64,000 nucleotides of DNA, taken from the NCBI GenBank assembly GCA_025062275.1, contig JANXAP010000029.1, positions 1-64,000 of the forward strand, given 5' to 3'. Shown one piece after another: positions 47,581 through 54,088 of the stretch. A program made the position numbers and the translations under genes. This DNA is from Dehalococcoidia bacterium. Lineage in GTDB: Bacteria; Chloroflexota; Dehalococcoidia; SM23-28-2; HRBIN24. Under the pieces are notes generated by a model. It was not told where the DNA came from and searched no databases. It saw only the letters and a program-made list of their open reading frames with translations. Each line of letters opens with the position of its first letter. The stretch's first letter is position 1.

Positions 47581-48089
47581 GCGTGGACAGGGACCTCTTC
47601 CGGCGCGTTATGGGCCAGTTCGCCACCGGCGTCACCATCGTTACCACCCGCCTGGGCGACCACCTGCACGGCAGCACCGCCAACGCCTTCACATCGGTGT
47701 CCCTGGAGCCGTTGCTGGTGCTCGTGTGCCTGGACAAAAAGGGCGATACTCACGACCTGGTGCAGAAGAGCGGTATCTACGCCGTCAACATCCTCAGTGA
47801 GGAGCAGGAAGAGCTCTCGCGCCTGTTCGCCCGTAAGGACCCCGACAGCTCCCACCGTCTGGACTCGGTGCCCCATCGCTATGCGGCGACCGGTGCCCCC
47901 ATCATCGAGGGGTGCCTGGCCTATCTGGACTGCCGAGTGGTGGACGCCGTGGATGCCGGCGACCACACCATCTTCCTGGGCAAGGTGGAAGAGGCGGCCG
48001 TCAGCGCTGACGGCCGCCCCCTGCTCTTCTTCCGCGGTCGTTACTGTCGTCTGGCCGACGAGGCGCCCAGCCCGGCTGTGAGGGGCTAA
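47577..48089 (+). CDS. flavin reductase-like FMN-binding protein
   Basis: A 170-residue protein of the flavin reductase/HpaC family. It has [13 protein letters not shown], the flavin-contacting [17 protein letters not shown] and [21 protein letters not shown]. Such proteins supply reduced flavin to monooxygenases or are oxygenase components. The start overlaps the pncC stop; the end meets the convergent thiolase gene with four shared bases. Confidence 0.92.
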
Positions 48090-49267
48090 CTGGGGCGCTC
48101 CACCACCATGGCGATGCCCTGGCCCCCGCCGATGCACAGGGTGGCCAGGCCTCGCTTGGCCTGGCGTCGGCGCATCTCGTAGAGCAGGGTCACCAGGATA
48201 CGGGTGCCGCTGGCACCGATGGGGTGGCCCAGAGCGATGGCGCCGCCATTGACGTTGACCCGCTCCCAGTCCCAGCCTAGCTCGCGGCCCACAGCCAGAG
48301 ACTGGGCGGCAAAGGCCTCGTTGGCCTCTATGAGGTCGATGTCGCGCAGGTCCAGGCCGGCTTTGGCCAGGACGCGGCGCACGGCTGGCACAGGGCCGAT
48401 GCCCATGATGCGGGGCGGGACGCCAGCGCTGGCATAGGCCTTGACCGTTGCCAGAGGCTCCAGGCCCAGCTCCTGGGCCTTGCGCCGCGAGACCAGCACC
48501 ACCGCTGCCGCACCGTCGTTGATGCCCGAGGCGTTGCCAGCAGTAACGCTGCCCCCGTTCTCGAAGGCCGGCCGCAGGCGCGCCAGCTTGTCGAGAGTGG
48601 TGTCCGGGCGGAAGTGCTCGTCCCGGTCCACCACCGTGACACCGGAGCGGGAGGGGACCTCCACCGGCGCGATCTCGTCGCGGAAGCGGCCCTCCTCCCA
48701 GGCACGGGCCGCCTTCATGTGGCTCTCGTAGGCGAAGCGGTCCTGGTCCTCGCGAGAGATCTCGTATTCGCGGGCCACATTCTCGGCCGTGATGCCCATG
48801 TGGCACTGCTCCAGGGCGCACCACAGGCCGTCCTTGATCATGTGGTCGAGCAGCTCGCCGTGGCCCATACGATATCCGAAGCGAGCCCTGGGCAGCAGAT
48901 AGGGGGCGGCCGACATGTTCTCCATACCGCCGGCCACCACCACATCGGCGTCCCCCAGCATGATGGCCTGGGCAGCCAGGGCCACCGTCTTGAGCCCGGA
49001 GCCACACACCTTGTTGACGGTGGTGGCCGGCACCGACTCGGGTATCCCGGCGGCCAGGGCGGCCTGTCGGGCCGGGTTCATGCCCAGGCCCGCCGACAGC
49101 ACGTTGCCCATGATGACCTCGTCCACCTGGTCGGGCTTGAGGCCTGACCTCTCCAGGGCGGCGGCGATGGCGGTGGCTGCCAGCTTGGGCGCCGGCACCT
49201 CTGTCAGGCTGCCACCGAAGCTGCCGATGGGCGTGCGGGCCGCTCCCACTATGAAGACCTCGTCCAT
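48086..49267 (-). CDS. acetyl-CoA acetyltransferase (thiolase)
   Basis: A 393-residue biosynthetic or degradative thiolase that splits or forms acetoacetyl-CoA. The acyl-accepting Cys is in [10 protein letters not shown] (near residue 87), and the later pair is GHPIGASG (His) and LCIGGGQG (Cys). Length is standard. ATG 49267 has GAGGGAGGAG just upstream. fabG and a small membrane protein lie upstream on the same strand, so thiolase and reductase may act in sequence on acetoacetyl-CoA. Confidence 0.95.
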
Positions 49268-49326: not shown

Positions 49327-49635
49327 CTAGGAGGCGCCCACCAACGAATAGAGAAAGAGGCCCACGGCCACCAGGAGCGCCAGCCGCAGCCGGCGGGCCG
49401 CCGAGAGCGGCCCTACCCCCACCGCCACCACTGACGCCGCCAGGAGCGGCGTCAAGAACAGTCGGACAGGGTGGTAGGGGGAGATGCCGGCAGCTCCCAG
49501 GGCGGCATGGAGTCCCACCGCCAGCGCGAAGGCAGCCACTGCCAGGGCCACCACGCGCAGCCAGGGCCGGCGGGGCAACTGCCCCGTTCGGGACGCGGCA
49601 GCGCGACGCCGTGGGGCCGACCTGGCCTTCACCAT
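49327..49635 (-). CDS. small two-helix membrane protein coupled to fabG
   Basis: A 102-residue protein with a basic N-terminus (11 Arg/Lys in the first 27 residues) and three hydrophobic stretches (about 27-46, 56-74 and 80-98). Its ATG overlaps the fabG stop (TGATG), so it is made by coupled translation. It has no close family I recognise. The overlap and the absence of another reading in this stretch support it as a real gene. Confidence 0.6.
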   Translation of the reverse strand: MVKARSAPRRRAAASRTGQLPRRPWLRVVALAVAAFALAVGLHAALGAAGISPYHPVRLFLTPLLAASVVAVGVGPLSAARRLRLALLVAVGLFLYSLVGAS

Positions 49636-50381
49636 CAGCGCAGATACATGCCGCCGTTGATGTCGAAGGCGGCACCGGTGATGTAGTCGCCCTCGGCCAC
49701 CAGGAAGCGGCACAGGCGCGCCACCTCCTCCGGTCGACCGAAGCGGCCCATGGGGATGCGGGCCAGCAGGTTCTTCTGCACCTCCTCCGACAGGCTCGTG
49801 ACCATGTCCGTCTCGATGAAGCCGGGGCAGACGGCATTGACGGTGATGTTGAAGCGGGCCAGCTCCAGGGCCGCCGCCTTGGTGAAGCCCACGATGCCGG
49901 CCTTGGCGGCGGCGTAATTGGCCTGGCCGATGTTGCCCATCTCGCCCACGATGGAGGACATGTTGAGGATACGCCCGCCACCCCGCTCTATCATGTGGGG
50001 CACGGCGTAGTAGGTGCAGTAGAAGACGCTGTCCAGGTCGGTGGCGATGACCTCCCGCCATTCCTCGAGGCTCATGCGGCGAATGGTGCGGTCGCGGTTG
50101 ATGCCCGCGTTGTTGACCAGGATGTCCAGCCCTCCGAAGTGCTGGACGGTGCACTGGACCAGGTGCTGGGCCTGTTCGGGCTGTGAAACGTCGGCCTGTA
50201 CGCAGATGGCCTCGCAGCCCTGGTCTTCCAGCTCTCGCCGGAGCTGCTCTGCCTGGTCCTTGCTGTGAAAGTAGTTGATGGTGACCTTGGCGCCGTGCAG
50301 GGCCAGCTCCTTGACGATGGCAGCGCCCAGGCCGCGGGAGCTGCCGGTAACGATGGCGACCTTGCCGCTAAGAGAGCCCAT
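49635..50381 (-). CDS. fabG: 3-oxoacyl-ACP/acetoacetyl-CoA reductase (SDR)
   Basis: With ATG 50381 (MGSLSGKVAIVTGSSRGLGAA) this is 248 residues. It is a short-chain dehydrogenase that reduces 3-ketoacyl groups with NADPH. The nucleotide loop is TGSSRGLG; NNAGINRD, catalytic Ser in LNMSSIVGE, and YAAAK with catalytic Tyr and Lys are present. The ribosome site GGAGGA lies 6 bases before the ATG and forms the 3' arm of a 12 bp hairpin. Standing near a thiolase it could be an acetoacetyl-CoA reductase (PhaB-like); no PHA synthase is in the window. Confidence 0.93.
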   Translation of the reverse strand: MGSLSGKVAIVTGSSRGLGAAIVKELALHGAKVTINYFHSKDQAEQLRRELEDQGCEAICVQADVSQPEQAQHLVQCTVQHFGGLDILVNNAGINRDRTIRRMSLEEWREVIATDLDSVFYCTYYAVPHMIERGGGRILNMSSIVGEMGNIGQANYAAAKAGIVGFTKAAALELARFNITVNAVCPGFIETDMVTSLSEEVQKNLLARIPMGRFGRPEEVARLCRFLVAEGDYITGAAFDINGGMYLR

Positions 50382-50387
50382 GCCGCT

Positions 50388-50428
50388 CCTCCAGTCGTAT
50401 TGTTTCGCCGCCAGTTTACGACTGGAGG
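50388..50428 (-). promoter_or_regulatory. hairpin that sequesters the fabG ribosome binding site
   Basis: On the minus strand CCTCCAGTCGTA (50428-50417) pairs perfectly over 12 bp with TACGACTGGAGG (50399-50388) around a 17-base loop. The GGAGG of the fabG ribosome site is inside the 3' arm, fully paired with CCTCC. No T-run follows, so it is not a terminator. The upstream part of the gap (50429-50478) is A+T-rich and may hold a promoter. Confidence 0.7.
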
Positions 50429-50478
50429 GACGTATCATTCAACATATAAATGCAGCGCTAGTAGCCCAGAGATTATTT

Positions 50479-52158
50479 CTATATGACCTCGGGCGGACGG
50501 TATTCGCCGAAGATGCGGCGCATGACGCCACATATCTCGCCCAGGGTGGCGTAGGCCCGCACCGCCTCCAGGATGGGGGGCATGAGGTTCTCGGAGTCGC
50601 GGCAGGCCTCCTCCAGCCGCCTCAGGGCGGCCTGGACCGCTGCCTGGTCCCGCTCCCGCTTCACCTTCTGCAGCTTCTCGATCTGGGCGCGCTCGGCCTC
50701 TGGCCTGGGGCGGAAGATCATCTTGGGCTGCTCGCCAGGGAGCTGGTAGCGGTTGACGCCCACCACCACCTTGCGTCCCTCGTCGACAGCCCGCTGCTGG
50801 GCATAGGCCGCCTCCTGGATCTCCCGCTGCATGTAGCCGGACTCGATGGCGGCGATGGCCCCTCCCATGTCCTCGATCCGGTGCAGGTACTCCCAGGCCT
50901 GGCGCTCCAGCTCGCCCGTGAGCCACTCCACATAATAGGACCCGCCCAGGGGGTCCACCGTGTCAGTGACGCCTGTCTCGTAGGCGATAATCTGCTGGGT
51001 GCGCACGGCTATGCGTTGCGCCTCTTCGGTCGGCAGGCAGAGGGCCTCGTCGTAGCACGAGAGGGCCAGGGACTGGACGCCCCCCAGCACCGTGGCCAGG
51101 GCCTGGATGGCCGCCCGCACGATGTTGAGCTCCGGCTGCTGGGCGGTTAGGGTGGCGCCGCCCGTCTGCACGTGGGTGCGGAACATCCAGGAGCGGGGGT
51201 CCTTAGCGCCGTAGCGCTCGCGCATGATGCGCGCCCACATGCGGCGCAGCGCCCGGTACTTGGCTACCTCCTCGAAGAAGTTGTTCTGGGTGTTGAAGAT
51301 CCAGGAAATGCGGGGGCCGAAGTCGTCTATATCCACCCCTCGCTCCAGCACAGCGTCTATGTAGGCCATAGCGTTGGCGAAGGTGAAGGCCATCTCCTGG
51401 ACGGCCGTGGACCCGGCATCGCGGATGTGATAGCCGGAGATGCTGATGGAGTTGAACTTGGGCATCTCCTTGGCGCACCAGGCGATGAGATCGGCCGCCA
51501 GGCGCAAGGAGGGACGGGGCGGAAAGATATAGGTGCCGCGGGCCACGTACTCCTTCAGGATGTCGTTCTGGACCGTGCCCGACACCTCCCGCAGGGGCAC
51601 CCCCTGCTTCTCGGCCACGACGGCATACATGGCCACCAGCACTGCCGCTGGGGCATTGATGGTCATGGAGGTGCTGACCTTGTCCAGGGGAATGCCCTCG
51701 AACAGGGCCTCCATGTCGGCGAGGGTATCGATGGCCACCCCCACCTTGCCCACCTCGCCGTGGGCCTGGGGATCGTCGGAGTCGTATCCCAGCTGGGTCG
51801 GCAGGTCGAAGGCCACCGACAGGCCTGGCTGCCCCTCCTGCAGCAGGAACTTGAACCGCTTGTTGGTCTCCTCGGCCGTCTCGTAGCCGGCATACTGTCG
51901 GAAGGTCCACAGCCGGCCACGATAGCCGGTGGGATGGATGCCGCGGGTGTAGGGGTATTCACCCGGGAAGCCGATGTCCCGCATGTAGTCGATGTCGGCC
52001 ACGTCCAGCGGCGTGTAGAGGCGGCGCGTCTCGGTGGAGCTGGTGCGGAACTCTACCTCGTCCCTCTCACCCCCACGCTCCAGGGCGCGCTTGAGGGTGC
52101 TCTCCTCCCAGCGCTGCTGCTCCTGCCGCAGTCGCTCCAGCTCCTGGCGGTCGAACAT
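50479..52158 (-). CDS. methylmalonyl-CoA mutase-type large subunit (no B12 domain)
   Basis: A 559-residue acyl-CoA mutase catalytic subunit. It has the [21 protein letters not shown] substrate region, [29 protein letters not shown] and [13 protein letters not shown]. The cobalamin-binding domain that ends one-piece mutases is absent; in this sub-branch it is a separate small protein, which is not in the window. It may rearrange methylmalonyl-CoA or another branched acyl-CoA. The MaoC-like gene ends 3 bases upstream of its start. Confidence 0.9.
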
Positions 52159-52161
52159 GGC

Positions 52162-52680
52162 TCATCCCTCCCTGCTGCTCGCCTCGGTCTTGGGCTCCGG
52201 GAAGGAGTGGGGCAGTCCTGCCTCGCGCTTGGGCACCATCACCGAGCGGCGGAAGCGCATCACCAACTCGCCGTGCTGGTTGTAGGCGCGAGTCTCCACC
52301 GTCACGATGCCCCGGTCGGGCTGTGTGCGGGACTCGCGCTTCTCTAGGACGGTGCTCTCGGAGTAGATGGTATCGCCGTGGAAAGTGGGGCGCAGGAACT
52401 CGATCTTCTCGAAGCCGAGGTTGGCCACCGCCTTGCCCGAGATGTCGCGGACGCTCTGGCCCAGGGCGATGTCCACCACCAGGTTGCCCACCACCACGTT
52501 GCGCCCGAACTGGGTCTTCTTGCCGTATTCGGCGTCGATGTGCAGGGGGTGGTGGTTCATGGTCAGCATGCAGAAGAGGATGTCGTCCATGTCGGTGATG
52601 GTGCGGCCGGGCCAGTGGCGATAGGTGGCCCCCACCTCGAAGTCCTCGAAGAAGCGCCCGAAGTCGCCGTGCCCCGACAT
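52162..52680 (-). CDS. MaoC-like hydratase/dehydratase
   Basis: A 172-residue hotdog-fold protein of the MaoC family, hydrating an enoyl-CoA or dehydrating a hydroxyacyl-CoA. The catalytic Asp/His pair is likely in TMNHHPLHIDAEYG; GNLVVDIALGQSV and FLRPTFHGDTIYSES are family motifs. Similar proteins act as mesaconyl-CoA hydratase. It stands directly upstream of the mutase (3 bases), suggesting a joint route for branched C4-C5 acyl-CoAs. Confidence 0.88.
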   Translation of the reverse strand: MSGHGDFGRFFEDFEVGATYRHWPGRTITDMDDILFCMLTMNHHPLHIDAEYGKKTQFGRNVVVGNLVVDIALGQSVRDISGKAVANLGFEKIEFLRPTFHGDTIYSESTVLEKRESRTQPDRGIVTVETRAYNQHGELVMRFRRSVMVPKREAGLPHSFPEPKTEASSREG

Positions 52681-52794: not shown

Positions 52795-53964
52795 CTACTC
52801 CCCGAACAGCCGCAACAGGTTGCGAGCGATGACCAGACGCTGTATCTCGTTGGTCCCCTCGCCGATGATCATGAGCGGCGTGTCGCGGTAGTAGCGCTCC
52901 ACCCGCATGTCCTTGGTGTAGCCCACGCCGCCGTGGATGCGCAGCGCCTCCATGGCCACTTCCTGGGCCACCTCCGAGGCGAAGAGCTTGGCCATGCCGC
53001 CCCAGAGGTCGGCCCGCTCGCCGGCGTCCTTCTTGGCGGCCGCCGCCCGTGTCAGCAGCCGCGCCGCCTCGATCTTGGTGGCCATATCGGCCAGCTTGAG
53101 CTGGATGGCCTGGTGCTCGGCGATGGGCCGCCCGAAGGTGACACGCTGCTTGGCGTAGCGCATGGCGTCCTCCAGGGCGGCAGTGGCGACCCCCACTGCC
53201 CTCGCTGCCACGTTGATGCGGCCCACCTCGATGGTGCTCATGATGTGGAACCAGCCCTGGCCCTCCTGGCCGCCCACCAGGTTGGACACCGGCACCCTGG
53301 CATCCTCGAAGTAGAAGACGGTCGTGTCGATGCCCTTGTAGCCCAGCTTCTCTATCTTGCCCCCCACCGTCAGTCCGGGGGTCTCGTCCTTGTCAACGAT
53401 GAAGGCGCTCATCCCCGCGTAAGGCGGCTGGGCCTGGGGGTCGGTCTTGGTGAGGACGGCAAAGAGCTTGCCGTGGATGCCGTTGGAGACGAACATCTTG
53501 GTGCCGTTCAGGACGTAGTTGTCGCCGTCGCGAACGGCCACCGTCTGCAGGGACTGGAGGTCGGAGCCAGCGTTGGGCTCGGTCATGCAGATGCCGCAGA
53601 CCTCGCCCTGGGCAATGCGGGCCAGGAAGCGGTCCTTCTGGTCCTGGGTGCCATAGGTCTTGATCATCCAGGAGACCATGACGGCCCCGTTGATGATGCC
53701 GCCCAGGCTCATCCAGCCCCGTGCCAGCTCCTCGACGATGGCGGCATAGGTGACGAAGGAGAGGCCTAGGCCGCCGTACTCGGGAGGCACGGCGACGCCG
53801 AAGAGGCCCATGTCCTTCATCTTCTGGACGAGGGCATGAGGGTACTCGTCGCGGTGCTCCATCTCCGAGGCCACGGGCAACACTTCGCGGTCGACGAAGC
53901 GTCGCACCTGATTGACGATCATCTGGTCTTCTTCGCTGAGGGTGGCCATTGTGGGCAAAGGCAT
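52795..53964 (-). CDS. acyl-CoA dehydrogenase
   Basis: A 389-residue flavoenzyme of normal short/medium-chain type. It has [48 protein letters not shown] and the catalytic Glu in IIGEGTNEIQ near the C-terminus. ATG 53964 has AAAAGGAG 6 bases upstream. It precedes the MaoC and mutase genes on the same strand with a 114-base gap that shows nothing specific. It is the likely oxidation step of that unit. Confidence 0.95.
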   Translation of the reverse strand: MPLPTMATLSEEDQMIVNQVRRFVDREVLPVASEMEHRDEYPHALVQKMKDMGLFGVAVPPEYGGLGLSFVTYAAIVEELARGWMSLGGIINGAVMVSWMIKTYGTQDQKDRFLARIAQGEVCGICMTEPNAGSDLQSLQTVAVRDGDNYVLNGTKMFVSNGIHGKLFAVLTKTDPQAQPPYAGMSAFIVDKDETPGLTVGGKIEKLGYKGIDTTVFYFEDARVPVSNLVGGQEGQGWFHIMSTIEVGRINVAARAVGVATAALEDAMRYAKQRVTFGRPIAEHQAIQLKLADMATKIEAARLLTRAAAAKKDAGERADLWGGMAKLFASEVAQEVAMEALRIHGGVGYTKDMRVERYYRDTPLMIIGEGTNEIQRLVIARNLLRLFGE

Positions 53965-54088
53965 GGCTCTCCTTTTGGTGCTGAAGTCTTCGCGGCTTCT
54001 ATAGCTGGCTCCAGTTTACGCCCTGGCAGGGGCAGGCTTCAAGGGCGGGCGACGGCCCGGCCGCGGGCATCGGCGATGCCCTCGGCTG

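Follow-up and report, generated by a model that had tools for sequence, protein, structure and literature searches.

The ribosome-binding site of a fabG-like gene in the 64,000-nucleotide stretch of DNA analysed here (the window) is covered by a real hairpin, the stem of which is under selection and acts as RNA. A promoter predicted for the same gene straddles the left arm, and we consider it fairly likely that this promoter-embedded, fold-back hairpin renders read-through RNA translationally silent for fabG.

A hairpin over the fabG ribosome-binding site

The fabG gene lies upstream of a thiolase gene and is co-directional with the operon preceding it, i.e. ACAD-MaoC-mutase (Table 1); a divergent acyl-CoA ligase gene also neighbours the cluster. 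In agreement with the original prediction, the arms CCTCCAGTCGTA and TACGACTGGAGG form a perfect stem at the coordinates claimed, with all 12 positions complementary and a loop of 17 nt on the minus strand. The Shine-Dalgarno sequence (SD) GGAGG in the 3' arm is followed by 6 nt (AGCGGC) and the ATG at 50381. A genome search found the exact arm sequence nowhere else than in the two arms of this hairpin.

Table 1. Features of the fabG region, in window coordinates
Feature	Position	Strand	Basis
Thiolase, downstream of fabG	48086..49267	minus	PF00108/PF02803
fabG-like short-chain dehydrogenase, 3-oxoacyl-ACP / acetoacetyl-CoA reductase type	49635..50381	minus	Pfam PF00106/PF13561, NCBIfam
Right (3') arm TACGACTGGAGG	50388..50399	minus	contains fabG SD GGAGG at 50392-50388
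Predicted transcription start zone, hairpin loop	50404..50408	minus	position of -10 box, ~7 nt downstream of it
-10 box TAAACT (GG next), 18-nt spacer	50413..50418	minus	PWM and motif recurrence
Left (5') arm CCTCCAGTCGTA	50417..50428	minus	12/12 complementary to right arm
-35 box TTGAAT, predicted fabG promoter	50437..50442	minus	PWM 14.5, invariant columns
Conserved CATTTATA directly 5' of -35 box	50445..50452	minus	invariant in four species
Methylmalonyl-CoA-mutase-type large subunit, last gene of upstream operon	50479..52158	minus	PF01642
MaoC-type hydratase	52162..52680	minus	PF01575/PF19315
Acyl-CoA dehydrogenase (ACAD), first gene of upstream operon	52795..53964	minus	PF00441/PF02771/PF02770
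ACAD operon promoter TTGAAG-N18-TAAACTGG, form as in fabG promoter	54011..54042	minus	motif search

Opening the SD of fabG costs 13.3 kcal/mol, the first rank among 267 SD-bearing starts (mean 3.8, SD of the distribution 2.5) sampled from 464 kb of the same genome, on which the background statistics rest; the start set came from a simple ORF caller, so individual entries may be wrong, and the ranking is clear. None of 500 shuffles of the sequence 5' of the SD matched this cost. The MFE test of the whole leader was weakly significant (z -1.75) because the leader is GC-rich, and it is the SD-specific tests that are informative.

Conservation and covariation of the stem

The family comparison comprised four genomes, G000 (the source, a bin of 1.8 Mb) to G003, from two genera (g1 and g2) with two species each. 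By protein identity (60%), the closest relative with a name is a Dehalococcoidia bin, which makes Chloroflexota the probable affiliation of the organism. The junction between the mutase gene and fabG is present in all three other genomes, the contig of G001 holding no more than the initial bases of fabG. Each of the four leaders folds into a stem that hides the SD, with opening costs of 13.3, 12.7, 11.1 and 11.1 kcal/mol (G000 first, as throughout) that are reached by only 0-4 of 500 upstream shuffles in each genome, bearing out the claim that the ribosome site is hidden.

The left/right arms of the four species are CCTCCAGTCGTA/TACGACTGGAGG, CCTCCGGTCGT/GCGACTGGAGG, CCTTCCGTTGGCG/CGCCGACGGGAGG and CTCCCTCCGCTG/TAGTGGAGGGGG. 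Because the MAFFT alignment of the four leaders set G002 and G003 out of register, pairs were counted in a register fixed on the SD, in which 39 of 40 core cells pair. Stem position 6 is occupied by A-U, G-U, C-G and G-U, and position 7 by G-C, G-C, G-C and C-G. The pairs that are not Watson-Crick comprise five G-U, one A-A and no A-C as read on the mRNA strand, in keeping with the earlier statement that the hairpin has a meaning on one strand only.

Exchanging the stretch between the -35 and -10 boxes of the promoter described below (the spacer, in which the left arm sits, overlapping the -10 box in its first two bases) showed that every species reaches its highest opening cost with its own spacer (13.1, 11.2, 11.2 and 9.8 kcal/mol). 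With spacers from the other genus the cost falls to 2.5-6.1 kcal/mol, and with those of the ACAD promoters it is 1.0-7.5 kcal/mol; swaps within a genus were tolerated in g1 (10.1, 10.9) and not in g2 (4.4, 4.5). Shuffling the spacer of G003 did not lower the cost significantly (191/1000), because its SD has other partners. The loop of this species (locus L003) carries a second GGAGG (GGCTGGAGGAGCGG) that is able to pair with the left arm, and this can act as a decoy that makes the true SD cheaper to open. The compensatory changes that the original prediction had suggested looking for in relatives were thus found, and the pattern of pairs indicates that the two arms co-evolve as strands of the mRNA side.

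Outside the family, the family-type stem is absent from the fabG orthologs of two sister families (14 genomes; opening costs 0.7-5.4 kcal/mol), the leaders of which carry unrelated hairpins. Relatives lacking the left arm had been named as a finding that would speak against selection for pairing: inside the family all keep it, and its absence is confined to genomes outside. Since the stem is kept in all four species despite changes in the arms, with compensatory or G-U differences, with each species' own arms fitting best and with sister families devoid of it, the stem is under selection as RNA.

Two further observations concern more distant leaders. In a class-level fabG homologue (L020), the SD is likewise part of a stem, with an opening cost of 11.4 kcal/mol, which could reflect chance or convergence, and the fabG leaders L014 and L018 from other families of the order contain long REP-like inverted repeats (GTAGCTGCAGGCC...GGGCTAAAGCCC).

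A predicted promoter within the hairpin

TATAAT and TTGACA are over-represented in the upstream regions of the genome, and the commonest spacings of TTGH/TAnnnT pairs are 17 and 18 nt (20 and 14 regions vs 4 and 6 for the opposite strand). When a promoter position weight matrix (PWM) trained without fabG was applied, TTGAAT-N18-TAAACT was the best site of the fabG leader, its score of 14.5 being attained in 8 of 234 reverse-strand regions. In the leaders of the other three species, too, the equivalent site ranks first (9.6, 14.5 and 11.2), the scores of G001 and G003 being modest (9.6 is reached by 41/234 and 11.2 by 25/234 reverse-strand controls). In all four species, this top site has the form TTGnAT-N17/18-TAnnCT and its -10 box ends 31-33 nt 5' of the ATG; in the alignment of the leaders, the columns without variation fall in CATTTATA, TTGnAT and TAnnCTGG.

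The combination TTGAA-N18-TAAACTGG has two genomic occurrences, one upstream of fabG and the other upstream of ACAD, where the promoter is conserved across the family. A wider form, TTG-N20/21-TAMACTGG with the GG right after the -10 box, has 31 sites in the four family genomes vs 1 in the reversed control. Several of the sampled sites lie just upstream (20-50 nt) of the starts of glyA, rho, ligA and further housekeeping genes, with gene names assigned by eye from translations, and others are more distant. Judged by sequence, the motif beside and within the hairpin represents a genuine promoter type of these bacteria, with the left arm as its spacer. The element CATTTATA, invariant in the four fabG leaders and absent from the ACAD promoters, could be UP-like or the -10 box of a second promoter.

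Some additional sites were recorded. Family loci with the TTG-N20/21-TAMACTGG form include L205, L210, L213, L218, L220 and L221. An in-frame ATG at 50438 (minus strand) would add 19 residues to FabG and may be picked by gene callers; a leader peptide or N-terminal extension from it was rejected, as this ATG is out of frame or missing in relatives and lies inside the -35 box. At G000:C7:131868 (L178 11868, plus strand), a second possible promoter-embedded SD hairpin reads TTGAAG ATCCCTTACGCCCGCGT TAAGCT GGCCCC GTAAGGAGG TCAGC ATG. Also in G000:C7, a short divergent intergenic region (L172 8273-8334) contains an inverted repeat, CCTCCCTAT...AGGGAGG, able to hide the SD of either gene.

Proposed silencing of read-through RNA and alternative explanations

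Under the reading that we favour, transcription from the fabG promoter would start in the loop of the hairpin, as suggested by the position of the -10 box, and the gene's own mRNA would possess the right arm only, leaving the SD free. RNA entering from the ACAD-MaoC-mutase operon would contain both arms, so that the 12-bp stem would fold and hide the SD, and the output of fabG would thereby depend solely on its own promoter. One may further speculate that the untranslated read-through RNA is cut short by Rho-dependent termination. We infer the exact start site, as well as the occurrence of read-through and its silencing in the cell.

The predicted promoter position, judged by its motif only, would give an RNA without the 5' arm, and the SD of this predicted native RNA is clearly cheaper to open than that of the upstream RNA in all four species, i.e. 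4.7-5.4 vs 11, 1.3-2.3 vs 10-11, 2.0-2.9 vs 6.6 and 2.1-6.9 vs 8-10.5 kcal/mol, with the native RNA of G000 keeping a moderate cost of about 5 and that of G003 reaching 6.9 with a shorter downstream window. No intrinsic terminator (GC stem plus U tract) was predicted between the mutase gene and fabG in the four family genomes. Silencing of read-through from the ACAD-MaoC-mutase operon is the simplest reading that explains both the conservation of the promoter and the covariation of the RNA, and may be what the hairpin exists for; probably, it silences only RNA running in from this neighbouring operon.

Alternatively, transcription from the upstream operon, or from a promoter at CATTTATA, might itself be a repressive signal, yielding a long, untranslatable fabG isoform and interfering with the short one. 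This would resemble the control by long undecoded isoforms in yeast, here in a metabolic pathway of a bacterium, and we regard it as doubtful.

The original prediction had seen in the hairpin a translational switch controlled by temperature, ligand or protein. Such a switch on the gene's own mRNA supposes a start 5' of the left arm, e.g. at CATTTATA, and a protein, small RNA or ligand opening the hairpin; it would be possible if CATTTATA were a working upstream promoter. The invariance of this element in the four species, its position, about as far upstream as the TATAA boxes of the sister families, and the 7.7-12.5 kcal/mol that an RNA begun there would cost to open are consistent with it. 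However, CATTTATA has no -35 partner and no rival site outscores the promoter within the hairpin; because this best promoter has the left arm in its spacer, the normal fabG mRNA should be without that arm, which argues against a switch acting on it. Moreover, the block would be so deep that the gene would be nearly off without an activator, and none is indicated.

Heat would not relieve this block: in folding of the leaders at 10-70 °C the SD stayed paired in all four species, with an unpaired probability of at most 0.08 at 70 °C, which, within the limits of folding, excludes a thermometer. As for a ligand, the leader has no match in Rfam (E up to 1), and the structure is a simple stem without an aptamer, its loop being non-conserved apart from the -10 box. 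The element is thus probably neither a thermometer nor a riboswitch, and regulated switching on the gene's own mRNA is on the whole unlikely.

Very unlikely, in our view, is that the inverted repeat acts as DNA, i.e. as a repressor site covering the fabG promoter. The repeat does overlap the promoter spacer and start region, a usual place of an operator, and is perfect in G000, but its arms diverge and co-vary between species where operators keep their half-site sequence, and its asymmetries are G-U on the mRNA strand (five G-T, no A-C, in a fixed register). In addition, the leader of the ACAD promoter, which is of the same form, contains no repeat of this kind, and the arm sequences do not recur in the genome. 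Finally, a GC- and pyrimidine-rich spacer that pairs with the SD by accident, or a stem serving 5' stability, would fit the frequent CCTCC-N15-45-GGAGG-ATG combinations of this GC-rich genome and the unrelated hairpins of the sister families, but is extremely unlikely given the first rank of fabG among the sampled starts, the covariation in all four species and the absence of any general SD-pairing tendency of spacers genome-wide (mean z 0.13, 56 promoters).

Comparison with known systems

Silencing of fabG read-through RNA would have its closest counterpart in phage T4, in which longer early transcripts of the lysozyme gene e form an inhibitory structure over the ribosome site, while late promoters immediately upstream give transcripts that lack the 5' portion and are well translated, an effect reported as 100-fold in a review; soc, 49 and I-TevI likewise have read-through RNA with a sequestered ribosome site (PMC3014915). 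As in gene e, the upstream RNA of fabG would carry an inhibitory stem over its SD, a short RNA without the 5' arm is predicted here from a promoter located at the 5' strand, and the stem is kept in close relatives and missing in more distant ones. Unlike gene e, fabG is a bacterial metabolic gene with a promoter of the vegetative sigma-70 type rather than a phage late promoter, and no temporal programme of early and late expression is known for it.

In the fold-back inhibition of IS10/Tn10, RNA from outside includes the inverted repeat, which conceals the start of the transposase gene, and the promoter belonging to the element lies inside; the fabG hairpin differs in that it is not in a mobile element and its repeat is not a transposon end. 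The element EGeRS1 of pLS20 also disturbs read-through that comes from promoters upstream of it; its authors could not decide whether RNA or single-stranded DNA is responsible. With RNA thermometers and SD-sequestering riboswitches, fabG shares an SD within a stem; unlike in these, the stem shows no melting up to 70 °C, there is no aptamer and the stem is probably not part of the gene's own mRNA. A limited literature search found no published case on a chromosomal metabolic gene.

An SD-hiding hairpin obtained by folding genomic DNA may be absent from the working mRNA, and the promoter position should be checked first. If our reading is true, a free-living bacterium employs a mechanism familiar chiefly from phage T4 and one insertion sequence, and by it uncouples the translation of one gene in a metabolic cluster from that gene's neighbour with no need of a terminator.
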